From Neoroseomonas marina (lineage in GTDB: Bacteria > Pseudomonadota > Alphaproteobacteria > Acetobacterales > Acetobacteraceae), in assembly GCF_012927745.1 (NCBI RefSeq), contig NZ_JABBKX010000002.1, positions 248,001-312,000 of the forward strand: a DNA stretch of 64,000 nt, in the 5' to 3' direction. The translations under genes and the position numbers were made by a program. The notes under the pieces were generated by a model that was given only the letters and a program-made list of their open reading frames with translations, searched no databases and was not told where the DNA came from. This document shows, one piece after another, positions 6,192-35,405 of the stretch (within the stretch, counting starts at the first letter, position 1; every line of letters starts with the position of its first letter).

Positions 6192-8198
6192 CTACAGCGC
6201 GGTCGCTGTCACCGGCCCGGCCAGGGTCGAGACGTTGCCCTCGGCGGAGACGGTGCGCAGCCAGTACCAGCGGGTGTCGCCGGCGCTGAGGCTCGTGCGG
6301 TCCCAGAAGAGCCCGGTCGGCTCCGCCGGCAGCTTCGTCGCCGCAGCGAGGCTGCTGGTCGTCGCCTCGAATACTTGCAACTTCACCGCGTCGGCCGGAA
6401 AGCCCCCGGAGAGCCGGATGCCGCCGGCAATACCCGCGGCGGTGGGCGCCGCGACCGCGGCGGGGACGAGGGCCTGCCGCCAGCCCGACACCGCGCCACT
6501 GCGCGCCACCGCGCGCACCCGGAAGCCGGTGGGCTCGGCGGTGGGGATGGCCGCGGCGGTGGCGCCCAGAGACCCGCCGTAGCCCTGCCAGGCCGCGACG
6601 GAAGCCGGCAGGAACTCGACCTGGTAGCCAGCGAGGTGCGAGGAGCCGACCGCGGCCCAGGAGACGGCCAGGACGGCAAAGGCGGTCACCTGCGGCGTCT
6701 CCACCGCGATGCTGGCCGGTGCGGCGATGACGCCCGGGTTCGGCAGCACCACGGCCGGGTTGCTCCCGGTGGCGCGTTCATCCACCGCCGGGTTCCAGTC
6801 CCACACCGCGGGGTCCTCCTCCTCCAGGGTAAGATCGACACCGCCCTCGGCGGCGAGCGACCAGGCGGTGACCCGCGCCGGGAAGGGCGTGAGGCGGTCG
6901 AGCGCGACCGTCGCCGCCTCCCACGGCCGCAGCCGCAACGCCGAGAGGTTCGCCGGAAAGGCCACGGTGCGCTGGCGGCGGTTGCGCTCCAGCTCGACCT
7001 TCATCAGCCGCTGGACGGTGCTGACCGAGGTGGTCAGCGGGAACTCGAGGTCGCGATAGATCATCTCGCCGCCGTCCTGGGCGACGTAGTTGCTGGCCAG
7101 CAGCGGCGGGGCGTCGGTCGGCTGCCAGTTGGCGGCGGGCTCGACGTAGACGGCGCGCACCCCGTTGAAGAGATCCCGCCGCGGCCGCGCACCCTGGATG
7201 GTGACGTCGCCGCGGAGATCGTCCGAGGTCAGGGTGGCGGCCGGCAGCGCCGGCGCCCCGGCATGGATGAAGAACCGTCCGCCGGAGACCACCAGCGCAC
7301 CGGCCATGGCAGCGGCGAGCTTGCGGGTGATGGCAATCTTGCCTTCGGCGAGCGACAGCACGCCGTTGGCGGTGTAGCGGCGCTCGTAGATCCCGTCTCG
7401 GGTGCCAACCAGCTCGTCGCAGATGTTGGCGGCGGCCATCAGCGCCGGGATGTCGATGTCGGCCCAGGACGCCCGCCAGCCGAAGGGAGCGGTGAGGTAC
7501 CAGGCGAGCAGCAGGGCCGGGTTATCGGACCAGCCCACCATCCCGGTGCGCGGGTCGAGGATGGTGTCGGCACCCTCGACGATGGCGGCGATGTTGGGCG
7601 GGCCGGCGGGGAAGGCCTCGGCGGTGAGCTTGAGGCGGACGGCGACATAGGCGCGGCCACGGCCGCGATGGTCGCTGGTCCACTGGCCGCCGGTCTCGGC
7701 GATCAGATTGGCGTCGGCCGCTTGGTCTGGCTCCCCCAGGTGCCGGTCGATGCGGACCAGCCCGGCGAGCGAGCCATCGCTCTCCACCTTGTCGCCGAGG
7801 AATACCTCGCCGATGGCACGGACGCGGTGCGCGGCGAGCACGACGACGGAATAGAAGTAGCCGTCCGCGCGACCCTCATCGTCGGTCGCCGAGTGCAGGA
7901 AGACGATCGGCCCGGACACCTTGCAGCGGCCGAGGACGAGCTGGTGCTCGGTGACCGGCTGGCGGAAGGCCTGGGTGCGGCCGGCGCCCGGCTGGCCGGC
8001 GTCGAAGCCGGCGATCGCTGCCGCCTGCGGGCTGAGGCTGGCCTGCTTTTTCTGCTTTTGCGGAAAGACCGACTGGCCGATGGCGGAGACGATGAAGGCA
8101 GCGCCAGCGCCGACCACGGCACCGATGATGCCACCGCCGACCGCAGCGGAGGCGACGCCGGCAGCGGCGACAGCAATGAGGGGGACGGCGGCAGGCAT
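6192..8198 (-). CDS. Phage tail hub / host-specificity protein (gpJ-like)
   Basis: This 668-residue protein has an N-terminal hydrophobic glycine/alanine-rich segment (residues 5-45). A central baseplate-hub region follows (AYVAVRLKLTAEAFPAG, NPALLLAWYLT, 'LFNGVRAVYVEP'), matching the putative phage tail protein family (PF13550 type) of lambda gpJ relatives. Fibronectin III-like modules make up the last 230 residues (SWAAVGSSHLAGYQVEF, FRVRAVARSGAVSGWRQ). It sits between the tail tip peptidase-like gene and the tail spike, as gpJ does in lambda-like tails. The tail-hub call is robust; the receptor is unknown. Confidence 0.85.
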   Translation of the reverse strand: MPAAVPLIAVAAAGVASAAVGGGIIGAVVGAGAAFIVSAIGQSVFPQKQKKQASLSPQAAAIAGFDAGQPGAGRTQAFRQPVTEHQLVLGRCKVSGPIVFLHSATDDEGRADGYFYSVVVLAAHRVRAIGEVFLGDKVESDGSLAGLVRIDRHLGEPDQAADANLIAETGGQWTSDHRGRGRAYVAVRLKLTAEAFPAGPPNIAAIVEGADTILDPRTGMVGWSDNPALLLAWYLTAPFGWRASWADIDIPALMAAANICDELVGTRDGIYERRYTANGVLSLAEGKIAITRKLAAAMAGALVVSGGRFFIHAGAPALPAATLTSDDLRGDVTIQGARPRRDLFNGVRAVYVEPAANWQPTDAPPLLASNYVAQDGGEMIYRDLEFPLTTSVSTVQRLMKVELERNRRQRTVAFPANLSALRLRPWEAATVALDRLTPFPARVTAWSLAAEGGVDLTLEEEDPAVWDWNPAVDERATGSNPAVVLPNPGVIAAPASIAVETPQVTAFAVLAVSWAAVGSSHLAGYQVEFLPASVAAWQGYGGSLGATAAAIPTAEPTGFRVRAVARSGAVSGWRQALVPAAVAAPTAAGIAGGIRLSGGFPADAVKLQVFEATTSSLAAATKLPAEPTGLFWDRTSLSAGDTRWYWLRTVSAEGNVSTLAGPVTATAL

Positions 8199-9852: not shown

Positions 9853-12021
9853 CTATCCGCGCACCGTGTCGTAGGCCGCGCCACCGCGGCGGATGGCATC
9901 CAGCGTCATCGCCGAGGCCTGGCGGGCGATCTGCCCGGCGAGCAGCCGCAGCCGTGCCTCCACCCCGGCGTCCGCGCCGCGCGCATCGATCGTGATGCTG
10001 GTGTGGATGGTCGGGCCACCCGGCGCGGTGCCGTTCGGCAGCACCGTGCCGGCCTGGCGTGGCACGAACCACTCCGGGCCACGCTCGCCGACGACATAGG
10101 GCTGGCCAGCAGCGACCGGCCCACCCTTGGCGCGGAACAGGCCACCGAGCCAGGAGCCGACATCGGTGAACAGGCTGTCGAAGGAGATGCCCGACAGCCC
10201 GGCCGTGACGGCATTGCCCAATGGCTCGGTGATGACCTTGCGCGCCAGGATGCGGGTGATGTCCTGCAGCAGGCCCTCCAGCACGGAGGAGAACTTCTCG
10301 CCCTTGACGATCGCGTCCTCGAAGGCGCTGGAGAAGGTCAGGCCCAGCTCCCGCACCACGTCGGAGGTGCGCGCCGCGCCCTCCTCGACACGGCGCTCGG
10401 CGCGCTCCAGCTCCTCCATCGCCGCGACCGCCTCGCGCTGGATGGTCTCGTCGGGCACCGCCCGGCCGGCGCGCTCGGCTCGCTCCACCAAGCTGGACAG
10501 AGTGGCGAGACGGCGCTGGTAGCGTTCATAGGCGGTCTCGTTCTGCTGGATCAGCCGCTCGCGCTCGCGCAGCAGGTCGTTCAGCTCACGCTCGGCCTCG
10601 CGCGCCTCCCGCGCCCCCTCGGCACTGGCGCGGCGGACGGCAGCGACGCGCGGCTCCAGCCGGCGCAGCGCCTCGTCGCGCTCCTGGAGCGCCAGTGTCT
10701 CGAGGCGGGTGCGCTCGGCGGTGGTGACACCGCCGGCGGCCTCGGCCTCGCGCAGGCGCCGGACGCGCTCCTCGTACTCCCGGTTGATCCGGAAGCGGTC
10801 GTCGAGGTCGCGGGTGAGTTCCTGGACGTCCTGGGTTGCGCGGCGCCGACGGGCATCGGCCGCGGCGGTGGCCGCGCTCTCCTGCTCGCTGCGCTGGCGC
10901 TCGCCGGCGGCCTGCTCACCGCGGGTGATCTCGGCCTGGAGCTCCGTGTATTGCCGGCGCAGCTCCTCCAGCCGGGCCGCACGATCGACCCCGGCCTGCT
11001 GCTCGGCGGTGCCGACCAGGCCGGGGCGGATGCTGCCGCGGCGGACCGGGGCGGTGAGGCTGGCGCGGCCGTCCTGCTGGCTCTCCAGCCGGGCGATCTG
11101 CGCCGCCAGCGCCTCGGCCTGGCGGCGCATGCCGGCGAAGCGTTCCTCCTCGCTGAGCATGCCGGCGCCCTGGCGGACGCCGTCCACCGCGCGGGCCGCG
11201 GCCGACAGCGCGCGGGCCAGCGCATTGGACAGGCCGATGGCGCGATCGAGCTGGCCCAAGAAATTCTCGGTCGCCGCCGTCAGCTGCCCGAAGGCGCGGC
11301 CGAGGGAGAGGGGGGCGCGGTCGAGCTCGGAGCCGAGCCGTTCGGTCGCGCGCAGCAGCGCCGGGAACACCCGCTCGGCGGTGAGCTTGCCCTCGCTGCC
11401 GAGCTTGCGCAGTTCGCCGATGGAGACGCCGAGTTCCTTGGCCAGCCCCTCGGCCAGCAGCGGCATGGTCTCGAGGATGGAACGCAGCTCGTCGCCCTGC
11501 AGCACACCGGAGGCCAGCGCCTGGGCCAGCTGGAGCGCGGCCGAGGAGATCTCCTGGGTGGAGGCACCGGAGACGATGGCGACGCGCTGCAGGCCGCCGA
11601 CCAGGCGGACCACCTGGTCGGAGGTGGCGCCGATCTCGCGGGCGGCGATCGAGAAGCGCTGGAAGGCGTCGACGCTCTCGGAGACGGCGACGCCGGTGGA
11701 GAGCGCGTTGCGGTACAGCGCCTCGTAAACCGAACTCGCCCGCTCGACCGAGCCGGTGGCGTTCTGCAGCCGGGAAAGGCTCTGGGTTAGCGCGTCACCG
11801 GCCTGGACCAGGGCGCGCGCGGCAACAGCGACGCCGGCGAGCTGGATGCCGCGCACGGCGACGTCGAGCAGTTCGAGCGAGCGCGAGGCGCGTTCGGCGC
11901 CACCCTTGATCTGGTCGAGGGAACGCCGGCCGGTCTCGCCGACCTCGCGCATCTCCTGCTTGACGCGCGCGGCATCGTCCAGCGAGAGGCGGACCGAGAC
12001 GCGGCGGGTGGCGTCGGCCAT
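9853..12021 (-). CDS. Phage tail tape measure protein
   Basis: This 722-residue protein has the conserved tape-measure domain in its N-terminal 250 residues: 'YEALYRNALSTGVAVSESVD', 'ASTQEISSAALQLAQALASG' and 'LQGDELRSILETMP'. A long coiled-coil-like centre is rich in Arg/Glu/Ala (residues about 290-560). The C-terminus resembles lambda gpH-type tails (SAFEDAIVKGEKFSSVLEGL). It sets tail length and is ejected with the DNA. Its ATG follows the stop of the frameshifted chaperone product after one base, suggesting translational coupling. The rod would support a short siphovirus tail. Confidence 0.92.
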   Translation of the reverse strand: MADATRRVSVRLSLDDAARVKQEMREVGETGRRSLDQIKGGAERASRSLELLDVAVRGIQLAGVAVAARALVQAGDALTQSLSRLQNATGSVERASSVYEALYRNALSTGVAVSESVDAFQRFSIAAREIGATSDQVVRLVGGLQRVAIVSGASTQEISSAALQLAQALASGVLQGDELRSILETMPLLAEGLAKELGVSIGELRKLGSEGKLTAERVFPALLRATERLGSELDRAPLSLGRAFGQLTAATENFLGQLDRAIGLSNALARALSAAARAVDGVRQGAGMLSEEERFAGMRRQAEALAAQIARLESQQDGRASLTAPVRRGSIRPGLVGTAEQQAGVDRAARLEELRRQYTELQAEITRGEQAAGERQRSEQESAATAAADARRRRATQDVQELTRDLDDRFRINREYEERVRRLREAEAAGGVTTAERTRLETLALQERDEALRRLEPRVAAVRRASAEGAREAREAERELNDLLRERERLIQQNETAYERYQRRLATLSSLVERAERAGRAVPDETIQREAVAAMEELERAERRVEEGAARTSDVVRELGLTFSSAFEDAIVKGEKFSSVLEGLLQDITRILARKVITEPLGNAVTAGLSGISFDSLFTDVGSWLGGLFRAKGGPVAAGQPYVVGERGPEWFVPRQAGTVLPNGTAPGGPTIHTSITIDARGADAGVEARLRLLAGQIARQASAMTLDAIRRGGAAYDTVRG

Positions 12022-12022
12022 G

Positions 12023-12343
12023 TCAGGTGCTCTCCCCCTCGCGTCGAGCGGCGGCCCCCTCGGCCATGCCGATGCGGAGGGCGAGCAGCAATTCGGCGGC
12101 GGCCCAGCCTGCCGCCCCCATCTCGCGCGCCGCGGCGAGTGCGGCAGCGGTATCGAGCCTCAGGCCGGCCATGGTCGCCTCAGCGCAGGCGGTGCCGGCG
12201 GCCCAGCAGGCGTGGCCTTCGAGGCTGGTGGGGGCGTGCACGGCGTAGGGGCAGGCGTTGGCGCAGTCGCGGTCGAGGGCGGCGCAGCCGCGGCAGTAGT
12301 CGGGCCCGCGGCCGAAGTGCCACGCGGCGCGGGCCCTTAGCCG
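12023..12343 (-). CDS. Tail assembly chaperone -1 frameshift extension (GT-type C-terminal part)
   Basis: This frame opens in the -1 register at the slippery heptamer at 12349-12343 and runs 106 residues to a TGA just before the tape measure gene. It encodes a Cys-rich stretch (YCRGCAALDRDCANACPY) followed by an Ala-rich helical tail. It has an internal ATG at 12241, but the conserved-looking upstream 34 residues have no good start. That argues it is made as a fusion to the chaperone, as gpG-T is in lambda. The fusion would be about 230 residues. It bridges tape measure and tail tube during tail assembly. Confidence 0.7.
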   Translation of the reverse strand, partial: RLRARAAWHFGRGPDYCRGCAALDRDCANACPYAVHAPTSLEGHACWAAGTACAEATMAGLRLDTAAALAAAREMGAAGWAAAELLLALRIGMAEGAAARREGEST

Positions 12344-12714
12344 TTTCCCTCGGCGACCACCACGGCGACCGGGGCGGTGGCGCGGTCCCAGAACGCCGCG
12401 GCGATATCGTCGAGGTCCATCAGGCGCTCGACCGCCTCGGGCGAGAGCGGCAAGGGCTTGCCAGCGGCATCGCCGATGCCGTCCCAGGCGGTGACGGCGT
12501 GGCGAGCGAGCGCCTTGACCAGGAAGGCGAAGGACAGGCCGCGCGACATGTCGGGATCGAGGTCCGGATCGGCGATGCGGATCGCGGCCAGTCGGCGCGC
12601 GGCGGCGGCCTGAGCCGCGGCCATGACGGCCGTCGTGACGGGCCGAATTTCCACGCGCACGCCGCGCGGCAGGTCGAGCCAGTACGGCTCGACCGGGAGG
12701 TCGAGGGTGAGCAT
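12337..12714 (-). CDS. Tail assembly chaperone (gpG-type)
   Basis: This 125-residue protein precedes the frameshift extension and the tape measure gene, the standard place for the gpG/gp14 chaperone. It starts with a beta-hairpin-like stretch (LDLPVEPYWLDLPRGVRVEI, residues 4-23) followed by helices containing 'AFLVKALARHAVTAWDGIGD' and 'LDDIAAAFWDRA'. These resemble phage tail assembly chaperones that scan a host-like domain. The last codons before the stop contain the slippery sequence. Upstream, instead of the tail tube gene, is the inserted cargo. Confidence 0.75.
   Translation of the reverse strand: MLTLDLPVEPYWLDLPRGVRVEIRPVTTAVMAAAQAAAARRLAAIRIADPDLDPDMSRGLSFAFLVKALARHAVTAWDGIGDAAGKPLPLSPEAVERLMDLDDIAAAFWDRATAPVAVVVAEGNG
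12343..12349 (-). promoter_or_regulatory. Programmed -1 ribosomal frameshift site GGGAAAC
   Basis: Reading the minus strand, the zero-frame codons are GAG-GGA-AAC-GGC-TAA. The heptamer G-GGA-AAC is a canonical X-XXY-YYZ slippery site, one Z-base different from lambda's GGGAAAG. Slippage puts ribosomes into the frame that stays open for 106 codons to the tape measure start. The zero-frame stop is only two codons downstream. GC-rich sequence after the site could form a stimulatory structure. Confidence 0.8.
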
Positions 12715-12993
12715 AAGCTACTCCGCTGGGTTATGATGGGGTGCACAGGCCACGCCGGCAGTCAGGGCGCGCGTGGTAGGGAAATTTGATGGGGCACCAG
12801 TCGGGAAGCCTCCGGGGGGAGGTCGGTACCCATTCGGCCACCTAATCATCGATCATCGTAAATCGAGATTGCGGTCAATCAGCAGAAGCACGGTTAGTCG
12901 GGTGCCCCTGGAGATTTCCTCACCCTTCCGGGCACCGCCCATTGCTTGAGAGCACGTCAATCCTCAGTTTTTCGGGCGAAGGAGACAACCGCG

Positions 12994-13476
12994 ATGCCCG
13001 ACGCCGCGTCCAAGACTCAATTGCTACAAGACGCCCGAACCAAGCCGCCCTCGTCGACTGAGAGGATCTGGGGAGAGCAAGTTCTCGCGCACGGCTACAC
13101 GGCCATCCCCTCAATTCTGATCCGCGCCCAAGCGAGGCTTGGGATCACACCCTTGCAAATGAACATCTTGGTGCAGTTACTGGACTACTGGCGTGATCCG
13201 AGTCGCCGGCCCTTTCCGACCAAGAAGGAGATTGCAAGCCGCATCAAGGTTACCGACAAGACCATTCAGACGAACATTCGGCAACTCGAAATCGCAGGGC
13301 TAATTCGTCGAGAACAACGCAAGACCGCCGCTGGCGACTGGGGCAGCAACATCTATCATCTCGATGGACTCGTGGATCGGGTTCGCAAGCTCGAGCCCGA
13401 CTTTGCCGCGGCACGCGAGAGACGCCGAAAAGCGAAGGAATTGGCGGAGACCCCTGCTGGTCGCCGTGGCCGTTGA
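12994..13476 (+). CDS. Helix-turn-helix protein (HTH_36-like winged helix)
   Basis: The product is 160 residues from the ATG at 12994, chosen because GAAGGAGA precedes it at a good distance. Residues about 45-110 form a winged-helix domain: 'LGITPLQMNILVQLLDYW', then 'FPTKKEIASRIKVTDKTIQT' and 'RQLEIAGLIRREQR'. This is the pattern of the HTH_36 and replication-initiator-like families. A basic tail (ARERRRKAKELAETPAGRRGR region) follows. It is the first gene of the cargo, 94 bases before the PIN gene on the same strand. It may regulate that gene or be a plasmid-like remnant. Confidence 0.75.
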   Translation: MPDAASKTQLLQDARTKPPSSTERIWGEQVLAHGYTAIPSILIRAQARLGITPLQMNILVQLLDYWRDPSRRPFPTKKEIASRIKVTDKTIQTNIRQLEIAGLIRREQRKTAAGDWGSNIYHLDGLVDRVRKLEPDFAAARERRRKAKELAETPAGRRGR

Positions 13477-13570
13477 AACCGCTGATCACCAAAGTCGCGC
13501 TCGGTCGTGGCCTCGCTAGAACGACAAAGCCGCAGAGCCGCTGAATGCCCTTCGCGACCGGAGGCTGGTT

Positions 13571-14080
13571 GTGACGAACATCGTTGTGGCTGACACCTCT
13601 CTCGTCCTGAACTTCCTTCGCTTGGATCGCATGGCGCTTCTGGGCGCGTGGCGCTTCGATGTGTTGGCAACGGACCATGTGAGTCAGGAAATCACCGATC
13701 CTGTGCACCGGGCACGCTATGCGAAGGCCGAGGCTTCAGGGCACATTCGAGAGGAGGCGGTGACCGACCTCGCGGAGGTCGCGATCTTTCTGAAACTCGC
13801 CACCAACAGCCGTCTTGGCCCAGGTGAGCGCTCTGCCATCGCTGTCGCGTTGAATCGAGGCTATCCGCTGGCAATAGATGACAATAGGGCGCTGAAAAGA
13901 GCCGTCGCTGAAGCCGGCATCACAAGGCAGCGTCTTGTCATCTACCGTACCCAGGACATTGTCCTCGATCTGATCAAGAGCGGTGCACTCGATGTTGGAG
14001 TCGCGAACGCCATGAAGGCTGCGTGGGAGCGACAACATCGCTTCAAGCTGAAGTTTGGCAGCTTCGCGGACTTACTGTGA
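13571..14080 (+). CDS. PIN-domain nuclease-like protein (DUF3368-type)
   Basis: This 169-residue protein starts at a GTG with GGAGG six bases upstream (13560-13564). PIN acidic residues are visible: D8 in VVADTS, E40, E86 in LGPGERSAI and D103/D104 in LAIDDNRALK. The 'GERSAIAVALNRGYPLAIDD' block is typical of DUF3368 proteins, many of which are toxins or RNases. It converges with the XRE-ImmA gene (34 bases between stop codons). It could be an RNase effector controlled by a neighbouring DNA-binding protein. No classical small antitoxin gene is adjacent. Confidence 0.82.
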   Translation: MTNIVVADTSLVLNFLRLDRMALLGAWRFDVLATDHVSQEITDPVHRARYAKAEASGHIREEAVTDLAEVAIFLKLATNSRLGPGERSAIAVALNRGYPLAIDDNRALKRAVAEAGITRQRLVIYRTQDIVLDLIKSGALDVGVANAMKAAWERQHRFKLKFGSFADLL

Positions 14081-14113
14081 GCAATGACCGCCTCTGACTT
14101 ATCGTCCCGCGCC

Positions 14114-15370
14114 TCAATCGTCGGAGCGTGCGGCCTCGGCCAGGTCCACTAGGTCCTCAACGTTCAGGAGCAGCTTTGCCGCAATCTCCCGAAGGCGGCC
14201 CACAGAGATCTCCTCCCGTCGGAAGGCCTCGATTGCCAAGTGCACGATCTGGCTTCGAAGCTCCTTCTCTCGCCCGACCTTGTTGCTCTCCTTTGGCGAA
14301 CCGTTGTCCAGGAGTTCATCGAAGTCGAGCATCTTCAGGTACTGATTACCGACCTCCTTCTGCGCAACGAGGCTCTGCGCCTCTGACTGCGACAGCCGAT
14401 TCAAGCTTCGAAGACGCCAAGCCGCTGCTTCGTAGCTCACTCGGAAATGCCGGGCGATTAACGCGACATCTTGGTAGGTGATGGTCTGTGAGCCGGCAGG
14501 CGGCCTGATCTCCGTATCAGACATCGCGTTGTTGGCCACATCGAAGATGGCCTGAGTCAATCGGCTTGGATTGCCCTTATTCAGCAACCTCAATTGCTCG
14601 AAGACGCCATCGGCCGGCATTAGGTAGGCGGCCGCGAAGGCGTTAGCGCGCTTCTCCATAAGCGCGGACGCATTGGCGCCCCTGGTTGCGGAGACAGTTT
14701 CACCGCGGTCGAACAACGCATGGGCGTACTCGTGCGCATACGAAAAGCGCCGCCGTACGTCCGAGTGCCCGGCATTCACCAGGATGGCGAGGCCAATGTC
14801 CGGGTGGTTCATGAAAAGGCCCGACATGTCGCTGTGAGGGCCAAACTCGGTCTCGGCTACCCAGACACCCTCCGCGCTGACAAGTTCGGCGAGGCTTCCC
14901 AGCGGAGCATTGCCCAACCCTAGGCGACGTCGTTCTTCCCCAGCGACCTCCTCTGCCTGCCGAATCGCGTCCGCCGCACTTCCGACCGGGGCCGCATAGT
15001 TCGGGATCTTCGGTTCACGTCGGAGTTCGAGCAGCGAACGTAGGCGTGCACCCTCTTGGCAAAGGTCGACCAGGCGCTCGACGTGAGCCTTGAAGGCCGG
15101 CGAGCCCGAAAATTCAGGAAGAGCTCTCGGAAGTACTACGGAAAGATCTTCCGTATTCGACTCCTTGTCGGAGAGCAGCGCAGCCGGCGCGAAGCCATAA
15201 AGATTTGCGAGTTGGGTGAGCTCCAGGGTGGATACGGACCGCGTGCCCGCCTCGATGTTCGTGAGCGCCGTACGTGGGATATGGAGCGTGTCCGCGGCGG
15301 CCTGTTGAGTAATGCTGCGGCTCTCGCGCGCGGCCCGAAGCCTTCGACCCAGCGCTGCCGCGTCAAGCAT
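14114..15370 (-). CDS. XRE-family repressor fused to ImmA/IrrE metallopeptidase
   Basis: The product is 418 residues from the ATG at 15370, which has GGGAGA nine bases upstream. An N-terminal XRE helix-turn-helix occupies residues 8-62 (SITQQAAADTLHIPRTALTN). The zinc peptidase domain has the H213-E-Y-A-H217 motif (YAHEYAHALFDRG). Its C-terminal part contains the usual second helix-rich region. XRE-ImmA proteins repress mobile-element or toxin genes and are inactivated by stress signals. It is divergent from the ubiquitin-like operon, whose promoter region it faces, so it probably controls that operon and itself. Confidence 0.92.
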   Translation of the reverse strand: MLDAAALGRRLRAARESRSITQQAAADTLHIPRTALTNIEAGTRSVSTLELTQLANLYGFAPAALLSDKESNTEDLSVVLPRALPEFSGSPAFKAHVERLVDLCQEGARLRSLLELRREPKIPNYAAPVGSAADAIRQAEEVAGEERRRLGLGNAPLGSLAELVSAEGVWVAETEFGPHSDMSGLFMNHPDIGLAILVNAGHSDVRRRFSYAHEYAHALFDRGETVSATRGANASALMEKRANAFAAAYLMPADGVFEQLRLLNKGNPSRLTQAIFDVANNAMSDTEIRPPAGSQTITYQDVALIARHFRVSYEAAAWRLRSLNRLSQSEAQSLVAQKEVGNQYLKMLDFDELLDNGSPKESNKVGREKELRSQIVHLAIEAFRREEISVGRLREIAAKLLLNVEDLVDLAEAARSDD

Positions 15371-15481
15371 GGTGATCTCCCGTTGCGTTCGAATCGGCCC
15401 TGGCCGGCAGACACACGTCTGCCGGCTTGGCAAGCCAAGAAGTCACCCACCGGACGCTCTCTGTCAAGATCATCCAGCGAC

Positions 15482-15547
15482 GTCCGAAATTTCCCTTGAC
15501 CGGCCTTGATCGGACTTCATATGGATAATTCATCCGAAACCGTCCGA
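15482..15547. promoter_or_regulatory. Divergent promoter and candidate XRE operator half-sites
   Basis: A promoter-like pair TTGACC (15496-15501) and TATGGA (15520-15525), 18 bases apart, points toward the ubiquitin-like operon. The half-site TCCGA or its complement occurs four times: 15483-15487, 15510-15514 (as TCGGA), 15533-15537 and 15543-15547. These overlap and flank the promoter. Such clustering suits binding by the divergent XRE-ImmA protein. The assignment of site to protein is inference. Confidence 0.5.
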
Positions 15548-15563
15548 TTCCGAGGTGTGTGCC

Positions 15564-16073
15564 GTGCCGAAGATTGATCTCTTCTACCAGGCTGAGGGTG
15601 TCGCCCAGATCGAGCACATCGAGGTCGAGCCCGACGCCACCGTCGCCGCCGTGAAGGCCCGCCTCGTCGGGCTGCAGGGGTTTGCCGCCGAGGCCCTGAT
15701 CTTCGTCGAGGACGAGGAGGAGCCCCTCAGCGACACCATCTGCGTGAAGGACCGCGCCGACCCCACGGGCCTCAAGGTCCACATCGGTCGATGCCGCCAT
15801 GTCGTGGTGGAAGTCACGTTCAACGGCGAGACCGTCGAGCGGCGCTTCCCGCCGAGCGCGACCATTGCGCGCGTCAAGCGTTGGGCTGCCGAGCGCGAGT
15901 TCGGCATGACCGATGATGAGGCCGGCGAGCACGTCCTGCAGCTCGCCGGCACGCACGACCGCCCGTCGCCGGGGGCGCACATCGGCACTCTGGTGGCCGG
16001 CAAGGCATGCGCGGCGGCATTCGATCTGGTCGCCAATGAGCGGGTCAACGGCGCCGATGGCGGCGCGCCGTGA
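15564..16073 (+). CDS. Tandem ubiquitin-like protein (BilA-like)
   Basis: The product is 169 residues from the GTG at 15564 (GAGG eight bases upstream; a GTG at 15555 would add three residues). It holds two beta-grasp ubiquitin-like domains, residues about 2-77 ([10 protein letters not shown], then [20 protein letters not shown]) and 79-157 ([20 protein letters not shown]). Each has the hairpin-helix-strand order of ubiquitin. The C-terminus is ADGGAP, with a Gly-Gly two residues from the end. Proteins of this type are activated by E1-like enzymes after trimming. It overlaps the E2-like gene by four bases. Relatives with tandem domains resemble eukaryotic ISG15. It is the proposed modifier. 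Confidence 0.85.
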
Positions 16074-16543
16074 GTGGTCCCGACCAGCGCGCCTTCGAGG
16101 CAGACATGACGAAGGCCGCGTTCCGCCTCGGCGCGGTCGAGGGACGCTGGCGGCATATCCGCACCGCGTGGCCGTATGCCCTGATCGGCGTCATGGCGAA
16201 GGACGGCCGCGAGTACGTGCTCCGCCTGAACTGCGCCGGCTACCCGCAGGCGCCGCCCACCGGCGGTCCCTGGGATCCGGCGCGGGACCGGGTGCTGTCA
16301 CCCGATCTCTGGCCGCGCGGCCAGGGCGGGCGCGTGTCGGCGGTCTTCCGAACCGACTGGAAGGAAGGGACTGCCCTCTACCTCCCCTGCGACCGAGAGA
16401 GCATCGAGGGCCACGACACCTGGCGTCACGAGATGCCTTCGAAGATCTGGCGTCCGGCCGACGGCGTCGTCCAGTACTTGGAGCTCGTCTATGAACTTCT
16501 CCATAGTCGCGACTATTCGCCGCCGCTTCGCGCCGCGGCATGA
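16070..16543 (+). CDS. E2-like ubiquitin-conjugating enzyme (BilB-like)
   Basis: The product has 157 residues. The centre matches an E2 fold: a beta-meander ending in '[20 protein letters not shown]' (the YP..pP element), then '[20 protein letters not shown]' and the final helices after '[20 protein letters not shown]'. C107 in LPCDR is the best catalytic-cysteine candidate; C55 is less likely. W127 occupies the usual post-cysteine position. The start overlaps the ubiquitin-like gene by four bases (ATGA), indicating coupled synthesis. It would receive the modifier from the E1-like protein and transfer it to a target. Confidence 0.8.
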
Positions 16544-17009
16544 GCTCTCCTGCTCTTGGTTCCTGTGGCGACGGCTCTGCCGGAAGCTGCGTGAGCGCGG
16601 GCACCGTAGGTCGCGGGAAAGCGGCGCGTTCCTGCTCGGCGTTCGTCGGGACGGACGTGCCCATATTGCCGACTTCGTGCTTTACGACGATCTCGATCCA
16701 CGCTGCCTCGACAGCGGAATAGTGCGCTTCAATGGCAGGCACTTCGGCGAGTTGTGGGCACTCTGCAAGGCGCGAGGGCTCACCGTCGTGGCAGATGTCC
16801 ATGTCCACCCGGGCGGTTCGGGTCAGAGTGCGTCCGACCGCGCGCATCCGATGATCTCGCGGGCAGGCCACATCGCGCTGATCCTGCCTCACTTCGCGGA
16901 TCCACCGCAGCGACGCAGCGAGATCGGGATCTATCGATATGAGGGCGCCAAGCAGTGGCTTGCTGTTCCGCCCGCCGACCGCGCTGCCTTCTTCCACATC
17001 GGGCTCTAG
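16491..17009 (+). CDS. JAB/JAMM-family deubiquitinase-like metallopeptidase (BilD-like)
   Basis: The product has 172 residues. The MPN/JAMM active site is visible: E43 (RESGAFLLG), H104-V-H106 ([10 protein letters not shown]), S113 and D116. The H-x-H to S-x-x-D spacing is one residue shorter than the common pattern. The reading frame overlaps the E2-like gene by 53 bases; no closer in-frame ATG exists. Relatives in Bil systems cleave ubiquitin-like precursors or conjugates. Here it could remove the last two residues of the modifier to expose Gly-Gly. Zinc-dependent activity is expected but not shown. Confidence 0.85.
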
Positions 17010-17019
17010 GAGCGATCGC

Positions 17020-18387
17020 ATGTCTGTCTTCACGCCGGCTGAATCGCTGCACCGCCTCGTCAAGCACGCGATCGACAGTGGTGCGGCCGAAAGCATTACC
17101 CAGGCCGAGGCGATGTTCCGGGGCTACCGCCTGAACATCGACATCGGCGCCTCCGCTGCCTCCGACCCAGTGCACCAGGCGGCGCTGCTCACCGCGGTGG
17201 CGGTTGGCCGAAGGGTGTTCCTCGGTGGTGTCACTGTCACTGGTGATCTCGCCGTGCCGCTCAGCGCACTGGCGCCACTCGGCCCCAACCTTGCTGCTGC
17301 GGTGGCGGCGCTCGGCGGCAAGCCTGGATGCTTCACGCAGGGCGCACCGGAGATCGCTATTGGCGGCGTTGTCGAAGAACGTCGCAATGGATTTCGAATC
17401 CGGACTGCTGCTGCGGGGTGGCGCGGTGGCGTTCTGCCGTCCTATTCGCCGCTGTCCCCCGAGCCGGGCCCCGCTATGCCGATAGCGGGGATGCTGTCCG
17501 GCGCCCTCGCAGTCAATGAGGCATTTCTGTCCGTGAGCGGCGGCGCGCCCGCCGCAGGGCGGCGCGTGCTCGGCCTCTCGCTCTGGCAGCCTGACGCGGC
17601 GATTGATTGGCTCAAGGCGGACCCGGCGGAACCGGTCCTGACCTACCTGCCCTCGAACCTCTGGCTGCTAGGCCTGGGACATCTCGGCCAGGCCTACCTG
17701 TGGGGTCTGAGTCTTCTGCCCTATCGAGACCCGGCAAAGGTCTCACTCGTACTCCAGGACATCGACATCATCACGCCATCCACGGAGAGCACCTCGATTC
17801 TGACGGATGCGACCATGGTCGGACTCAAAAAGACCAGGGCCATGGCGGCATGGACTGAGCGGCGCGGCTTCGCGACCACGATCCACGAGCGGCTATTCGA
17901 TGCAGACTTTGCCTGTCAGCCATCAGAGCCTGCAATTGCGCTCTGCGGATTGGATAACGCGAGTGGTCGTCGTGCGCTGGATCAGGTTGGCTTCAAGATG
18001 GTGATAGAAGCCGGGCTCGGCCGAGGACACCGTGACTTCCGGACGATGCGGCTCCACACCCTGCCTGGACCGCGTCAGGCTGCCGAAATCTGGAAGGGGA
18101 CGGCGGCCAAGGAGAATGTGGAAGAACAGCGGGCATACGCTCAGCTCCTCGCGCGGGGCACCCTCGACCGCTGCGGGGTGACTCTGCTGGCCGGCAAGGC
18201 CGTCGGGGCGCCATTCGTAGGCGCGGTAGCTGGCGCGCTCGCAATTTCGGAGGTTCTCCGTCATCTGCACGGAGGACCGGTGCACCAACTCATTGACCTT
18301 GACCTGCTGAGCCTAGAACACAGGATCACCTCTAGGCATCGGCATGATTTTGGCGACTTCAACCCTGGTTTCGTGCCCGCGCGTTGA
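17020..18387 (+). CDS. E1-like ubiquitin-activating enzyme, ThiF fold (BilC-like)
   Basis: The product is 455 residues from the ATG at 17020, preceded by AGGAG; a longer frame from 16939 would overlap the JAB gene. The ThiF/E1 Rossmann fold spans residues about 210-345, with G218-x-G220-x-x-G223 and the aspartates D247/D249 in VLQDIDIITP. 'ALCGLDNASGRRALDQVGF' follows. C385 in LDRCGVTLLAG is the likely thioester cysteine. The first 200 residues are a separate N-terminal domain of unknown function. It should adenylate the modifier's C-terminus and pass it to the E2-like protein. It is last in the operon, 10 bases after the JAB gene. Confidence 0.88.
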   Translation: MSVFTPAESLHRLVKHAIDSGAAESITQAEAMFRGYRLNIDIGASAASDPVHQAALLTAVAVGRRVFLGGVTVTGDLAVPLSALAPLGPNLAAAVAALGGKPGCFTQGAPEIAIGGVVEERRNGFRIRTAAAGWRGGVLPSYSPLSPEPGPAMPIAGMLSGALAVNEAFLSVSGGAPAAGRRVLGLSLWQPDAAIDWLKADPAEPVLTYLPSNLWLLGLGHLGQAYLWGLSLLPYRDPAKVSLVLQDIDIITPSTESTSILTDATMVGLKKTRAMAAWTERRGFATTIHERLFDADFACQPSEPAIALCGLDNASGRRALDQVGFKMVIEAGLGRGHRDFRTMRLHTLPGPRQAAEIWKGTAAKENVEEQRAYAQLLARGTLDRCGVTLLAGKAVGAPFVGAVAGALAISEVLRHLHGGPVHQLIDLDLLSLEHRITSRHRHDFGDFNPGFVPAR

Positions 18388-18531
18388 ACTCGTCCTGGTC
18401 TAAGCTGCGTTGCTTGCGCATCAGGAAGCAGTCGTCAATCAGTCAAGATCTACGAACCAACCGGCGGACGGCGACGAGATCGCGGGCTGCAACGTCTATC
18501 GCCAGGCTGGTCTTGGACTTTTGAATCACTG

Positions 18532-19494
18532 CTACGGTGACGCGTATTCACCCGCTGCCTGCTGATTCCTGAGCGCCGCCGTCATCATCCGCGTGGCCGT
18601 CGCATTAAAGGCCGCGCGGAACTCGAAGCTGGCCTCGACGCCGCCCGGCCCTTCGACCGGCGTCTTGGCCAACGCCAGGTAGACTTCGTGCAGCGTGAAG
18701 GTCAGGCTGCAGTTGGCGTCGATCGTGTAGCTGAAGGCGAACTCCGCGGGCGCGTTGGTCTGTGCCTGGGTCAGCAGCGTGGTGTCGGCGAAGCGCGCGG
18801 TGATCTGGCCGGTCGCGCGCGCGATGCCGGGATCCACGCCCTCCACCTTCCGGTCGGCGCGGATGGTGCGGACCATCTCCATGCCGTTCGCGTAGGTCAG
18901 CCTAGCCCCCGTCACCTGCGCCAGCGCGGAGCCGTCCCGGCTGATCGCCCCCTGCGCCTTGTGGAAGGCGGTGTAGGCGGCGCTGGTCGGCGTGCCGCCC
19001 GAGCTCGAGGCGCCGCGCGTCGAGCCCTGCCCGATCAGCCCGAAAGTCGCGGTGGCCGGGCCGCTCGGCGAGAAGTCGATTTCCAGCGTGTCGGCGCGAA
19101 CCCCGGTGCAGAGGTCGTAGTTCGGCACGTCCGGGTAGCCGATTTCGATGCTGTTGGAGGGCAACGCCGCCGCGCCCGAGCCGAAGCTGTGGATGAAGTT
19201 CGGGCTGGTGCCGGTGGTGGTCGGCGGGCCGAGCAGCAGGCGCAGCCAGTGGCCGATGTTCACCAGGTCGACCGGCACCACCGCCTGCCCCTGCACGGTG
19301 ACGGTGTCGAGGAAGGGTGCCGCCGGATCCCGGCTGCTGCCGACGCCAATGACGTCGGCATCGAGCAGCGGCTGCTCGGCACCGAGGTCGCAGGAGAGGA
19401 ACGGCATGCGCATCCAGTCGCCCGCGGGCGCGGTGCCGTAGGTCGCCTCGGGGATCATGAGCAGACGGCAATTGGCGCCGATGGCACGGGGCAT
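18532..19494 (-). CDS. Phage major tail tube protein
   Basis: The product is a 320-residue virion protein. N-terminal 'RLLMIPEATYGTAPAGDWMR' followed by long beta-rich repeats is characteristic of the Phage_tube_2 (PF18906) tail tube family of Mu/siphophage type. It is followed directly by the cargo insertion rather than by the expected chaperone gene. It is preceded by the tail terminator gene (35-base gap). Tube proteins stack into the hollow tail. The frame is intact, so the insertion has not broken it. Confidence 0.88.
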   Translation of the reverse strand: MPRAIGANCRLLMIPEATYGTAPAGDWMRMPFLSCDLGAEQPLLDADVIGVGSSRDPAAPFLDTVTVQGQAVVPVDLVNIGHWLRLLLGPPTTTGTSPNFIHSFGSGAAALPSNSIEIGYPDVPNYDLCTGVRADTLEIDFSPSGPATATFGLIGQGSTRGASSSGGTPTSAAYTAFHKAQGAISRDGSALAQVTGARLTYANGMEMVRTIRADRKVEGVDPGIARATGQITARFADTTLLTQAQTNAPAEFAFSYTIDANCSLTFTLHEVYLALAKTPVEGPGGVEASFEFRAAFNATATRMMTAALRNQQAAGEYASP

Positions 19495-22711: not shown

Positions 22712-24424
22712 TCAGGTCCCCGGGTTGAACCAGGCCCCGCGCCAGTCGATGGCGCCGACGCCGAAGTCGAAGATCACGCTGACCTCGACGCCGTCCGCGC
22801 CCTGCACGGGGCCGGTGGTGACCTGCGGTCCCTCGGCCCCGTTGAGGTAGCCGTAGACATAGACCGGCGCCGCGACCGGGTCGGAGAACAGGTACCAGCG
22901 GTTCGCCTGGATCAGCGGTTCGATCACCGGCTGCACGAAGCCGGCAAAGACGTTCGCCTTGCCGATCTCGCTCGCCTGCACGACCACCGTCGCCTGCCGC
23001 GCGGCGAGTTCGAGGTTCGGCCCGACCAGCAGGCGCATGGTCTGGCCCATGGAGATCGGCAGCCCGTCCAGCGTGCGCTGCTTCATGATGGCGGTGCGGC
23101 CGGCGCCGATGGTGGTGGTGTCGAGCACCGAGCCGGTGCTGGCCTTGTTGGCCCGCGCGGCACCGGTGGCGAACACCGCGGCGCTGCCGGTGGTCAGCGT
23201 CGGGCCGTCGCCATTGGCGCTGTTCAGCAGGTTGTAGGCGGTGGCGTTCTCGAACTCGGCGACGCGGCGACCGATGGCGGCGGCGAAGTCGGTGAAGGCG
23301 CCGAGATCGTCATTGACCAGCATCGGCCGCGTGACGCGGATGCGTCGCGCGAAGGTCTGCAGCAGCACGATCTCCTGGCTCTCGGACATGGTGCCGACCT
23401 GGATCTCGCCGTTCTCGGCGAGCGGCAGCAGGGTCGGGAAGTCGCCGACGCGGAGGTGCCGGTGCGGCTTGAAGTCGCGGAAGTCCCGCCGGAGGAAGAT
23501 CTGCCGGTAGGTCGGCTGCGCCGGCTGGTAGGCGGCGAGCAGCATCTTGTTGGCGGCGGCCGCGAGCAGCAGCGGAAAGTCCGAGCTGGTGTGGAAGGCG
23601 CGCTCGGCGAGCAGCGTCGGGTTGCGCGGCACGCTCCGCTCGCCGCGGGCGCGCAGCAGCTCGCCGATCATGTCGGACGGGCGCCAGCCCATGAACTCGG
23701 CGTGGCGGCCCGCGCGACCATTCTCCCCCTGGGGCTGATAGCCGGGCATGGCGCGGGCGGCGAGGGCCTCGGCCATGGCGTCGAGGATCTGCGCCGGGTC
23801 GTCGTGGCTTGGGCCGGTCTCGGGACGCGCGGGAATCGACGGCCGCGGGCCCTGCGCCACCAGGGCATCGAACAGAGCGCGGCGGGCCTGGTCGCCGGTC
23901 CAGCCCTGGGCGATGGCCTCGGCACGGATCGGGGTGATGCGGTCGGCCGGCAGGAGGGCGCGGGCGGCCTCCACCGCGACGTCGATGCCGGCGATACGCT
24001 CGCGTTCGGCGCGCTGGGCCTCGGCGCGGACCGCGTCGAGATCGGGCGGAGCGGCGCGGGTCAGCTCGGGCGGTGCGACCGCTGCGGGCGGCGTGGCGGA
24101 CGTGGACGGGGCGGCCGGTGCGGGGCTGGTGGTCACGGCGATCTCCTGGGGCGGGGTGGGCGGCGCAGACGGCGCGGGAATGTCCCTGGCGGCCGGCGCG
24201 GCCGGGGTCTCGGGCATGGGTGGATCCTCGTCAGGCAGAGCTGGTTCGATCGCGACGGCGGGCGCGCCCTGCGGCGCCTCGCCGCGCACCGCCGCATCGC
24301 GGTCCACCGGGACCGGCACGACGGAAATCTCGAAGGGCTCCCAATCCACCGCGCGGTGGACGGTCTCGCCGGTGGCGGCGTCGGGCCGCGGCTCGTAGCG
24401 GTGCACGCGGTAGCCGACGCTCAC
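22712..24424 (-). CDS. Prohead protease (C-terminal remnant) fused to HK97/Mu-type major capsid protein
   Basis: The product is 570 residues from a GTG at 24424. The first 50 residues (MSVGYRVHRYEPRPDAAT, then DWEPFEISVVPVPVDRDAAV) are the C-terminal segment of U35-type prohead proteases. A proline/alanine linker (about 55-125) follows. Then comes the major head protein (from about 220: 'MGWRPSDMIGELLRARG', 'YRQIFLRRDFRDFKPHRHLR', 'LPISMGQTMRLLVGPNLELA'). Protease-capsid fusions occur in alphaproteobacterial phages, but here the catalytic His/Ser part is missing. Sequence matching the protease stops at about 24446. The capsid may lack its maturation protease. Confidence 0.85.
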   Translation of the reverse strand: MSVGYRVHRYEPRPDAATGETVHRAVDWEPFEISVVPVPVDRDAAVRGEAPQGAPAVAIEPALPDEDPPMPETPAAPAARDIPAPSAPPTPPQEIAVTTSPAPAAPSTSATPPAAVAPPELTRAAPPDLDAVRAEAQRAERERIAGIDVAVEAARALLPADRITPIRAEAIAQGWTGDQARRALFDALVAQGPRPSIPARPETGPSHDDPAQILDAMAEALAARAMPGYQPQGENGRAGRHAEFMGWRPSDMIGELLRARGERSVPRNPTLLAERAFHTSSDFPLLLAAAANKMLLAAYQPAQPTYRQIFLRRDFRDFKPHRHLRVGDFPTLLPLAENGEIQVGTMSESQEIVLLQTFARRIRVTRPMLVNDDLGAFTDFAAAIGRRVAEFENATAYNLLNSANGDGPTLTTGSAAVFATGAARANKASTGSVLDTTTIGAGRTAIMKQRTLDGLPISMGQTMRLLVGPNLELAARQATVVVQASEIGKANVFAGFVQPVIEPLIQANRWYLFSDPVAAPVYVYGYLNGAEGPQVTTGPVQGADGVEVSVIFDFGVGAIDWRGAWFNPGT

Positions 24425-24446
24425 CGCGCGCAGCGTGCCGTCGGCA

Positions 24447-25383: not shown

Positions 25384-25898
25384 CCCGACGATCGACCACG
25401 AAGGCGAAGCAGCAGGATGCCGCGCCGCCGGCGCCCACCATCCCGACGATCCCGCCGGCGCAGGTGCTGCCGCGCCTTGCCGCGCTACAGGCAGCGCCAA
25501 TCGCGCAACTGAAGCAGCAGTGGCGGGAGTTGTTCGGGAAGGAACCGCCCCCGTTCAGCCGCAGCTACATCACCAGCCGGCTCGCCTATCGCACCCAGGA
25601 ACTCGCCTATGGCGGGTTGAAGCCCGAGACGCGGGCGCGGCTTGAGGCGCTGGGAGAGCAACTGGACGGCGGGAACATCGTGCTCCGGCGGATCCGCGCC
25701 GACAGCCGGCCGCTGCCAGGCACGCGGCTGCTCCGCGAGCACGACGGCGTGCAGCACGTCGTCACCGTCCGCGCCGACGACTTCGAATATGAGGGGCGGC
25801 CGTATCGGTCGCTGTCGGCCATCGCGCGCCACATCACTGGCACGCGCTGGAACGGCTGGGCGTTCTTTGGGCTGCGCCAGCCGGGCGGTGGGGCATGA
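25380..25898 (+). CDS. DUF2924 family protein
   Basis: The product is 172 residues from the ATG at 25380, with AGGAGAAAGGGAG directly upstream. The 'LKQQWRELFGKEPPPFSRSY' and 'RLAYRTQELAYGGLK' blocks and the closing 'GTRWNGWAFFGL' are DUF2924 signatures. This family nearly always lies immediately upstream of a large serine recombinase in alphaproteobacterial prophages and islands. The stop overlaps the recombinase start (ATGA). It may help the recombinase bind DNA or set the direction of the reaction, but its function is unproven. Confidence 0.85.
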   Translation: MTRRSTTKAKQQDAAPPAPTIPTIPPAQVLPRLAALQAAPIAQLKQQWRELFGKEPPPFSRSYITSRLAYRTQELAYGGLKPETRARLEALGEQLDGGNIVLRRIRADSRPLPGTRLLREHDGVQHVVTVRADDFEYEGRPYRSLSAIARHITGTRWNGWAFFGLRQPGGGA

Positions 25899-27247
25899 GG
25901 CGGAAGGCGCCCGCCGGCGCGGTGATGCCGGCGACCACGAAGAAGCTGCGCTGCGCGGTCTACACCCGCAAGAGCACGGACGAGGGGCTCGACAAGGAGT
26001 TCAACACGCTCGACGCGCAGCGCGAGGCCTGCGAGGCGTATGTCGCCAGCCAGCGCGCCGAGGGCTGGATCCTGGTCAGGGACCGCTATGACGATGGCGG
26101 GTTCTCCGGCGGCACGCTGGAGCGCCCGGCCCTGAAGCGGCTGCTGGCTGACACTGAGCAGGACCTCGTCGACGTCATCGTGGTCTACAAGATCGACCGA
26201 CTGTCCCGCTCCCTGATGGATTTCGCCAAGCTGGTGGAGACCATGGAAGCGCACGGCGTGACCTTCGTTTCCGTCACGCAGTCGTTTAACACCACCACCA
26301 GCATGGGCCGGCTGACGCTGAACATCTTGCTCAGCTTTGCCCAGTTCGAGCGCGAGGTGATCGGGGAGCGCATCCGGGACAAGGTCGCCGCGTCGAAAGC
26401 GCGCGGCATGTGGATGGGCGGCAAGGTGCCGCTCGGCTACGACGTGCAGAATCGGAAGCTGATCATCAACGAAGCGGAGGCCACGCGCGTGCGGCGGATC
26501 TTCGAGCTGTTCATCGAAACCGGCTCGGGTGTGGAGACGGTGCGCCGCCTGCAGGCCGAGAGCAGCGCCAGCAAGTCGGGCCGCCTGCTCAACAAGGGCG
26601 ACGTCTACAAGGCGTTGAACCTGCGGACCTACATCGGCGAGGTGACCCACAAGAGGAACATCTACCGCGGCGAACATGAGGCGATCGTATCGCGCGACCT
26701 GTGGGACCGGGCGCATGCCATCCTGCAGGTCAGCCCACGCACCCGGGCGGCACAGAACCGGCAGCACGCGCCGGCGTTGCTGAAGGGGCTGATCTTTGGG
26801 CTGGACGGAAGGGCGCTATCGCCGACCCATGCTGTGAAGAATGGTAGGCTCTATCGCTATTACGTGGCGCAGCGGGTGCTGAAGAGCGACGCCCACAGCG
26901 ACGACAGCATCGTGCGGCGCGTCTCGGCGGCGCAGATCGAGGGCGCGGTGATCAGCCAGGTCCGCGCCCTGCTTCGACAGCCGGAGATTGTGGTCGGCAC
27001 CTGGCTAGCCGCTCGACGCGAGGCTCCGGACCTGACCGAGCGCGAGGTTCGGGACGCGCTGCATCGGCTCGACCCGCTGTGGGAGGAGCTATTTCCGGCG
27101 GAGCAGGCGAGGATCGTCAGGGCGCTGGTAGAGCGGGTGGTGGTCGGGCCTGCCGGCGCCGACATCCGGCTCCGGGTCGAGGGACTAGCCGGCCTGGTTC
27201 GCGACCTCACGGCGATCGCGCCCGAAGCGCTGAGGGCCGCCGCATGA
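25895..27247 (+). CDS. Large serine recombinase (site-specific integrase/resolvase family)
   Basis: The product is 450 residues. The N-terminal resolvase domain has the catalytic serine in Y23-T-R-K-S27-T. 'DRYDDGGFSGGTLERPALKR' and 'YKIDRLSRSLMDFAKLVETM' follow. A recombinase domain is seen at about 170-290 (GKVPLGYDVQNRKLIINEAE, ALNLRTYIGEVTHK). A degenerate zinc-ribbon-like segment and a C-terminal coil complete it. The protein is somewhat short for phage integrases but complete. It integrates or inverts DNA at specific sites. It is linked by ATGA overlaps to DUF2924 upstream and the HTH-like gene downstream. Confidence 0.93.
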   Translation: MRRKAPAGAVMPATTKKLRCAVYTRKSTDEGLDKEFNTLDAQREACEAYVASQRAEGWILVRDRYDDGGFSGGTLERPALKRLLADTEQDLVDVIVVYKIDRLSRSLMDFAKLVETMEAHGVTFVSVTQSFNTTTSMGRLTLNILLSFAQFEREVIGERIRDKVAASKARGMWMGGKVPLGYDVQNRKLIINEAEATRVRRIFELFIETGSGVETVRRLQAESSASKSGRLLNKGDVYKALNLRTYIGEVTHKRNIYRGEHEAIVSRDLWDRAHAILQVSPRTRAAQNRQHAPALLKGLIFGLDGRALSPTHAVKNGRLYRYYVAQRVLKSDAHSDDSIVRRVSAAQIEGAVISQVRALLRQPEIVVGTWLAARREAPDLTEREVRDALHRLDPLWEELFPAEQARIVRALVERVVVGPAGADIRLRVEGLAGLVRDLTAIAPEALRAAA

Positions 27248-29359: not shown

Positions 29360-29395
29360 CCCTTCGCACCTCCCACCTTGCCAGGTCGAACGTCA

Positions 29396-30412: not shown

Positions 30413-30426
30413 CTGACGGGTGTCCC

Positions 30427-31005: not shown

Positions 31006-31007
31006 GT

Positions 31008-35061: not shown

Positions 35062-35334
35062 GAATTCGGGCTGTCTGATAGTTTGCCTGAGCAATGCTGT
35101 CGCTGAATTCTCGAGGCGTGCTCCGGCCGAAAGCTCTGGAAAAACAACGCCCTAAACCTTGTCGACTCAAGCGGCCAAGTCCCAAGGTCCGGAGAGAATT
35201 GGGAGGACGGAGACGCCCGCCGAGCCCCTGTTGCGCAGTCGAAGTATCAAGGTCTGCGGGCGAACCCCTCCCAAGCCTGCGCCTCAGCGCGGTGCACCGT
35301 CCAGGAGAGACAGGTTGTGAGAGAGAAGAATGGA

Positions 35335-35405
<71 letters not shown>

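Follow-up and report, generated by a model that had tools for sequence, protein, structure and literature searches.

The 64,000-nucleotide stretch of Neoroseomonas marina DNA analysed here (the window; contig NZ_JABBKX010000002.1, positions 248,001 to 312,000) holds at 15564-18387 four genes that, judged by their sequences, form a canonical Bil (bacterial ISG15-like, BilABCD) operon. It is very probable that a family of temperate siphophages has a variable, defence-rich site flanked by its tail tube and tail assembly chaperone genes and that this anti-phage operon is cargo there, the prophage in the window being a truncated remnant. Use against competing phages is, from these comparisons, the best reading of its function.

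Identity of the Bil operon

The genes bilA, bilB, bilC and bilD lie in one operon-like row on the plus strand, in which neighbours overlap or almost touch. The original prediction had named them, as four consecutive and tightly spaced genes, a tandem ubiquitin-like protein, an E2-like enzyme, a JAMM peptidase and an E1-like enzyme, and had likened this content to BilA-D; both the catalytic residues and the PADLOC models agreed, the four PADLOC matches (E-values, E, from 2e-56 to 6e-172) spanning almost the entire models. By comparison with relatives, the 5' end of bilD was placed at 17020 rather than 16939. In Pfam, the bilB product corresponded to DUF7665, the matches to ubiquitin (E 0.003) and Prok-JAB (8.5e-4) among the Bil products were weak and both under the cut-offs, and the bilD product had no match; NCBIfam gave zero matches for all four products.

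Structures of BilA and BilB were predicted with AlphaFold2 from 30 aligned sequences each. The BilA model (mean predicted local distance difference test score, pLDDT, 93.1) contained two beta-grasp domains, and was matched by Foldseek to linear di-ubiquitin and ISG15 with whole-chain TM-scores of just 0.4 or so, as would be expected if the angle between the two domains differed. The BilB model (pLDDT 94.7) was E2-like, and its top Foldseek matches were 8tz0 (chains C/D) and 8tyz, a 'bacterial E1-E2-Ubl complex' (E 8e-4 to 3e-3, TM 0.5-0.6), with none of the remaining matches better than E 0.1; compared by sequence with solved chains, a BilB profile gave no match. Profiles of BilC and BilD were matched to PDB 8tyx_B, 'DUB(BilC)' (E 2.4e-15), and, weakly, to the NEDD8 E1 (E 0.006). 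The original prediction had been made to depend on two beta-grasp domains in BilA and on an E2-like product of the gene at 16070, and the predicted models show both.

The catalytic residues that were expected proved conserved among the aligned relatives. Gly166 of BilA (P0001 numbering), which lies near the C-terminus with a 6-residue tail after it, was present in 30/30 sequences, as were Cys107 and His115 of BilB, whereas E43, H104, H106, S113 and D116 of BilC, and the GxGxxG motif at 218-223, D247 and C385 of BilD, were each conserved in 9/9. A CEHH motif is reported for BilB in a review (PMC11354881), and residues matching it were found at the right spacing in the window BilB, although its Glu occurred in only 8 and its second His in only 6 of the 30 aligned relatives. 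Separately, the BilB of a Sphingorhabdus plasmid (L011:7037-7495) has Leu at the position of the catalytic Cys, which is Cys in the other seven aligned.

A working scheme can be drawn from published Bil work, including the same review (PMC11354881). BilC would trim BilA to its terminal glycine, BilD would adenylate BilA and hold it on Cys385, and BilB, through Cys107, would transfer it to lysines of the tail proteins of an incoming phage, so that the tails of the progeny would be spoiled.

A variable cargo site in a truncated prophage

The phage genes flanking the operon are all on the minus strand, and the operon is antisense inside a siphophage tail module. To its left lie the spike, the J-like hub, distal tail proteins, the tape measure and the chaperone, and to its right the tube, terminator, spanin, endolysin, decoration and protease-capsid genes; phrog matches on both sides bear out the proposed position in the middle of prophage tail genes (Table 1). 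Rhodobacter phages have features with the annotation 'tail tube protein' to which the tube protein of the window shows about 44% identity.

By sequence comparison the prophage is a truncated remnant. DNA similarity to its relatives stops at 24443-24448, in the protease-capsid gene, in 6/6 places whose DNA extends past this point, and at the other end homology stops at 4352-4386, at the end of the spike gene, in the 3/3 relatives compared there. In the relative L137, a longer protease-capsid gene is followed by genes matching the annotated portal and terminase large subunit of phage records. No homologue of either was found in the genome of the window (G000, 99.7% complete), in which the same searches as those that detected both in 3/3 control genomes were used, and the window lacks the complete head and packaging gene set of a functional prophage. 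Past the break there are genes for a DUF2924 protein and for a large serine recombinase.

Two further observations concern these surroundings. Adjoining the broken prophage, window positions 27696-35094 carry DUF3037, HipA_2 kinase, DUF3644 and type I restriction-modification-like genes, a group that ends near a tRNA-Gly (35331-35405) and looks like a second defence island. The terminase of L137 (L137:7411-10446) has about 364 extra residues (73-436) absent from the G016 and G045 homologues, a segment that looks like an intein.

Tail tube homologues were found in 30 of the 156 genomes searched, that of the window included. Twenty related prophage loci with tubes 80-96% identical to that of the window were compared, 19 with both anchors of the site and one ending before the chaperone. 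The gap between tube and chaperone measured 702-7085 bp (median 1799) in all 19, and no Bil match was found in any of the 20 loci. At the other junctions, at most two loci exceeded 500 bp, except between the endolysin and p6367, where the distance was about 1235 bp in 10/10 and where further small phage genes are present in the window. Similarity to the window stopped about 25 bases or less from the chaperone start and the tube end, where these could be aligned. Insertions confined to single prophages of L116-L135 were also seen at other junctions, for example between tape measure and distal tail in L119 and between hub and spike in L120.

The contents of the site in the relatives were scanned with Pfam for 20 of the 43 listed cargo reading frames (15/19 loci), and for 10 of these also with PADLOC. 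Lamassu LmuA/LmuB (PADLOC E 0) was found in L129 and Septu PtuA/PtuB (PADLOC E 1e-90 and 3e-62) in L133. Elsewhere the site held a gene combining helix-turn-helix (HTH) and IrrE domains (L117), a Phd antitoxin (L118, with L123, L124 and L135 looking alike by listing alone), ParE (L128), an HNH nuclease (L121), an alcohol dehydrogenase, a trypsin-like protein, a PNPase-like protein with a transposase, a small multidrug transporter, or proteins of no family. With such a mixture of defence genes, enzymes, a transporter and proteins of no family, the slot between tube and chaperone is, as far as sequence comparison goes, a turnover site rich in defence genes but not confined to them. In the window, the cargo had a G+C content of 0.59-0.68, compared with 0.69-0.74 in the phage genes (1-kb windows), and third-position G+C was clearly lower (0.66-0.75) in bilC, bilD and the cargo genes on the regulator side.

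Because related prophages hold other genes, some of them for defence, at the same spot, the operon was read as antiviral cargo rather than as part of the phage's own particle. The original prediction had also allowed a role in the prophage's own virion, in which BilA would decorate the tail hub or spike for assembly or host adaptation, and the location between tail genes, with the J-like hub encoded about 7 kb away, would suit it. However, the operon is on the strand opposite to the tail genes, its cargo segment is lower in G+C, the loci of the 20 relatives have no Bil match and the site is filled with other genes in 19/19 cases, and of the 99 genomes in the relatives' set Bil was found in 3, one of them that of the window. 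The prophage, moreover, is missing portal and terminase. A role in the virion was rejected on strand, composition, site occupancy and truncation, and it is considered extremely improbable because the site holds other cargo in the relatives and the prophage is truncated.

Several results weigh against the view of the operon as an anti-phage cargo controlled by the HTH-IrrE protein encoded beside it. An empty site between tube and chaperone was not seen among the 19 relatives. Most of the sampled cargo of the relatives lies outside known defence, several of the 20 frames encoding enzymes or belonging to no Pfam family, and 4 of the 10 cargo proteins compared with PADLOC had no match. In third-position G+C, bilA (0.88) and bilB (0.84) differ little from the phage genes. 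No promoter match was found upstream in a scan made with the sigma-70 consensus only, and L117 carries an HTH-IrrE gene without Bil, so that such a gene may act on its own.

The truncation and the lack of a match in the sigma-70 scan would also be expected if the operon were a dead passenger, one that has lost its expression and has stayed whole only by chance while the prophage decays. This appears unlikely, as the four frames are open and every conserved catalytic residue checked is present, whereas a decayed Bil locus looks different, as in L009, where bilB and bilC are short.

The distribution of Bil was followed from BilD. A pattern scan of genome contigs gave 163 BilD relatives, the best 80 of which were examined, and tblastn of plasmids gave 36 with BilD relatives, 9 of which were examined. 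Leaving out copies of the window, the complete four-gene set was present in 87/93 loci, in the order A-B-C-D in 87/87, and the other six were without one or more of the genes. No match to the Bil E1 was obtained by tblastn in 50,697 phage records, and the pattern scan of viral contigs gave two Bil loci: L001, with a BilD 100% identical to that of the window, and L095, a putatively viral contig with Bil plus the end of a helicase gene, of which two neighbour proteins were searched and had no match among phage records. Near other Bil loci, 20 window proteins from the phage, cargo and recombinase sides had no match except a 27% recombinase match at L024, other phage types not having been looked for, and around the nine annotated plasmid loci the PLSDB gene tables, which are incomplete, list no phage structural gene to a distance of about 8 kb. 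In a search of 385 genomes, BilD matches were found in eight, the window's, G432, G465, G072, G345, G419, G167 and G177, those of G419, G167 and G177 being fragments or weak.

Table 1. Location of the Bil operon, its neighbouring cargo and the flanking prophage genes in the window.
Feature	Position	Strand	Match or remark
Tail spike, last gene common to relatives	4355..6181	-	phrog_7458 E 1.1e-7
Tail hub / central tail fibre, J-like	6192..8198	-	phrog_5616 E 1.6e-86, phrog_31 E 1e-64
Tape measure protein	9853..12021	-	phrog_339 E 3.4e-64
Tail assembly chaperone, left anchor of cargo site	12337..12714	-	phrog_313 E 1.8e-14
Variable cargo site, chaperone-tube gap	12715..18531		5818 bp in window
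HTH_36 / DnaD_N-like DNA-binding protein, chaperone end of cargo	12946..13476	+	Pfam E 1.4e-9, 7.6e-9; phrog_270 E 7e-9
Presumed PIN-like protein, convergent with HTH-IrrE	13571..14080	+	PADLOC candidate PDC-S70 E 3e-10
HTH-IrrE protein (Peptidase_M78), 418 residues, divergent from bilA	14114..15370	-	Pfam M78 E 3.7e-16, HTH_31 E 1.1e-10
Divergent intergenic region HTH-IrrE/bilA, candidate operator	15371..15563 (193 bp)		four CGGAC/GTCCG half-sites
bilA, tandem ubiquitin-like modifier	15564..16073	+	PADLOC BilA E 2.2e-56; 5' end set by relatives
bilB, E2-like conjugating enzyme	16070..16543	+	PADLOC BilB E 2.2e-60
bilC, JAMM metallopeptidase (DUB-like)	16491..17009	+	PADLOC BilC E 1.1e-66
bilD, E1-like activating enzyme	17020..18387	+	PADLOC BilD E 5.8e-172
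Tail tube protein, right anchor of cargo site	18532..19494	-	phrog_290 (named minor tail protein) E 2e-53
Protease-capsid gene, N-terminal end cut off	22712..24424	-	phrog_4523 aligned from position 128
Large serine recombinase, past truncation point	25895..27247	+	phrog_95 E 7.6e-102; Pfam Resolvase + Recombinase

Genes upstream of bilA

The gene divergent from bilA encodes an HTH-IrrE protein with the metalloprotease motif HEYAH at residue 213, which was matched in PADLOC by RmrA models (E 3e-23), capP (E 2e-15) and capH (E 6e-5). In the region between both genes, CGGAC/GTCCG half-sites occur at 15451, 15482, 15511 and 15542, spaced by 31, 29 and 31 bases; the shuffle mean was 0.53 and four were reached in 5/5000 shuffles, for a motif that was picked after viewing the sequence. 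HTH/M78 genes also lie upstream of bilA in L023 and L144, which have no helicase gene there, and in L145 with one small gene between; in L144 the HTH and M78 domains are in separate genes. Among the other Bil loci, no relatives of the window HTH-IrrE and PIN-like genes were found but a 62-residue HTH match in L066; therefore, what these loci have in common is the domain pair and not one gene family.

From its position and domains, the HTH-IrrE protein is probably the controller of bil. In PMC13373217 and PMC10904395, CapP and Deinococcus PprI are described as M78-type proteases activated by single-stranded DNA, and the former source also connects DNA-damage regulators with Bub and Bil operons. 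Less firmly than for the conjugation steps, the divergent protein may repress bil, with single-stranded DNA or DNA damage as its switch, in the manner of CapH+CapP.

The convergent gene at 13571..14080 had no Pfam or NCBIfam match, and its product is presumed to be PIN-like. A possible alternative, to which we give somewhat less than an even chance, is that the HTH-IrrE protein and this PIN-like protein are a separate toxin-antitoxin-like cargo and that bil has its own promoter. The HTH-IrrE gene of L117, which overlaps a small gene that is PIN-like by eye, is in line with it, and both HTH-IrrE proteins have RmrA-type matches in PADLOC. On the other hand, the PIN-like gene of the window and that of L117 do not match each other and neither has a Pfam family, the window gene is convergent instead of co-directional, the 193-bp region common to HTH-IrrE and bilA has its regularly spaced half-sites, and HTH/M78 genes are also upstream of bilA at other Bil loci that are without helicase. 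This alternative was rated lower because the PIN label has no family match, and control of bil by HTH-IrrE is preferred.

Upstream sequences were compared in those other Bil loci, 78 in number, in which 3.3 kb or more precede bilA; they are a non-random set of the best BilD matches plus plasmids that includes some near copies. A UvrD-like helicase gene was found upstream of bilA in 72 of them (including L003-L006, L008, L010, L011 and most of L015-L094), ending in 70 loci from 60 bases inside to 205 bases before the bilA frame, and in L034 and L077 present as broken copies further from bilA. Three helicases were scanned for domains, and an N-terminal M78 domain was detected in L010 (E 2.5e-10), in L142 (1.4e-14) and, under the cut-off, in L005 (3e-4), with a C-terminal PDDEXK nuclease in L005 and L142. 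HExxH occurred within the first 330 residues in 71/78 helicase frames, the other seven being shortened or cut. Before the helicase, where found by blastp, were a protein of about 220 residues (46 loci) and a sigma-region-4-like HTH protein (43 loci).

To lessen this bias, two overlapping samples, one of the class (385 genomes) and one of the phylum (398 genomes), were searched, with at most two candidates scored per genome. UvrD homologues were widespread (262/385 genomes at E 1e-60), whereas full-length matches including the IrrE part stood out in four genomes of the class (E below 1e-295; the next, 1e-95) and five of the phylum, and the 220-residue protein occurred in the same 4/385. All nine helicase modules in these samples had a ubiquitin-like gene next to them on the downstream side, of Bil or another type: Bil in two (G432, G465); Multi_ubiq, DUF6791-ThiF and DUF6527 in three (L142 by Pfam, at L142:5430-12650; L152 and L153 by similarity); and, in the remaining four, a Multi_ubiq-like gene (L143, L150, L151 and L154; the weakest, 27% identity, E 7e-8).

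The module is absent from the window, G072 (L144) and G345 (L145), all of which have HTH/M78 genes upstream of bilA. The helicase-less loci among the 78 were L023, with HTH-M78; L007, L056, L066 and L079, in which the HTH and 220-residue genes are retained; and the decayed L009, in which no M78 gene was seen. When 47 BilD rows were arranged in a tree, separate places among helicase-bearing relatives were taken by the window and by L023; the helicase label changed four times, at least two changes being forced by well-supported branches, and the exact place of the window was weakly supported.

Tentatively, and with a probability that we put a little below even, several classes of ubiquitin-like conjugation operon may share a front end, consisting of the sigma-region-4-like HTH protein, the 220-residue protein and an IrrE-UvrD-PDDEXK fusion, that switches on or cooperates with conjugation. 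The operon of the window would have lost this module and would rely on a stand-alone HTH-IrrE switch instead, which would link Bil to DNA damage and thereby perhaps to prophage induction or phage infection. The fusion, as a protease-helicase-nuclease, might detect damaged or phage DNA or process it. Of all the results, the linkage of the module with several classes of ubiquitin-like operon has the best chance of being new: no report of the module with such operons was found among the literature matches listed, the text of PMC13373217 contains neither 'helicase' nor 'IrrE' and names UvrD three times, each time for E. coli, and the text of PMC1779556 mentions neither helicase nor UvrD. If the linkage is functional, the trigger of bacterial ubiquitin-like systems becomes directly testable.

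Comparison with known systems

Bil itself is known, and the window operon has its same four genes in the same order, with near full-length matches, the predicted folds and the catalytic residues; its seat in a prophage tail block is unusual, and it lacks the upstream helicase gene of 72 of the 78 other loci. The name 'Bil' was absent from the main text of two defence surveys. The operon indicates that Bil, without a match in the phage records, can sit as prophage cargo.

The site resembles the defence hotspots of P2-like and other prophages that are described in PMC9122126, which likewise are small, have a high turnover, lie between a pair of conserved phage genes and hold known defence systems. 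Sites named there lie beside cos, between cI and integrase, or, adjoining the integrase, between regulator and peptidase genes, whereas the present site belongs to another phage family and is anchored by tail tube and chaperone genes inside the tail block. Turnover in 19/19 relatives and known anti-phage systems, Lamassu and Septu, were found here too, and searching such sites across this bacterial family could turn up new systems.

As in CapH+CapP, an HTH and an IrrE/M78 metalloprotease domain adjoin the start of an immune operon, but in the window they are fused in one 418-residue protein rather than being encoded by two genes, and RmrA is the better PADLOC match. Bub and multi-ubiquitin operons also pair a ubiquitin-like protein with an E1-like partner, and in L142, L152 and L153 they are preceded by the helicase module that precedes Bil elsewhere; the window operon differs from them in being BilABCD, with E2 and JAMM proteins, and not Multi_ubiq/DUF6791-ThiF/DUF6527.

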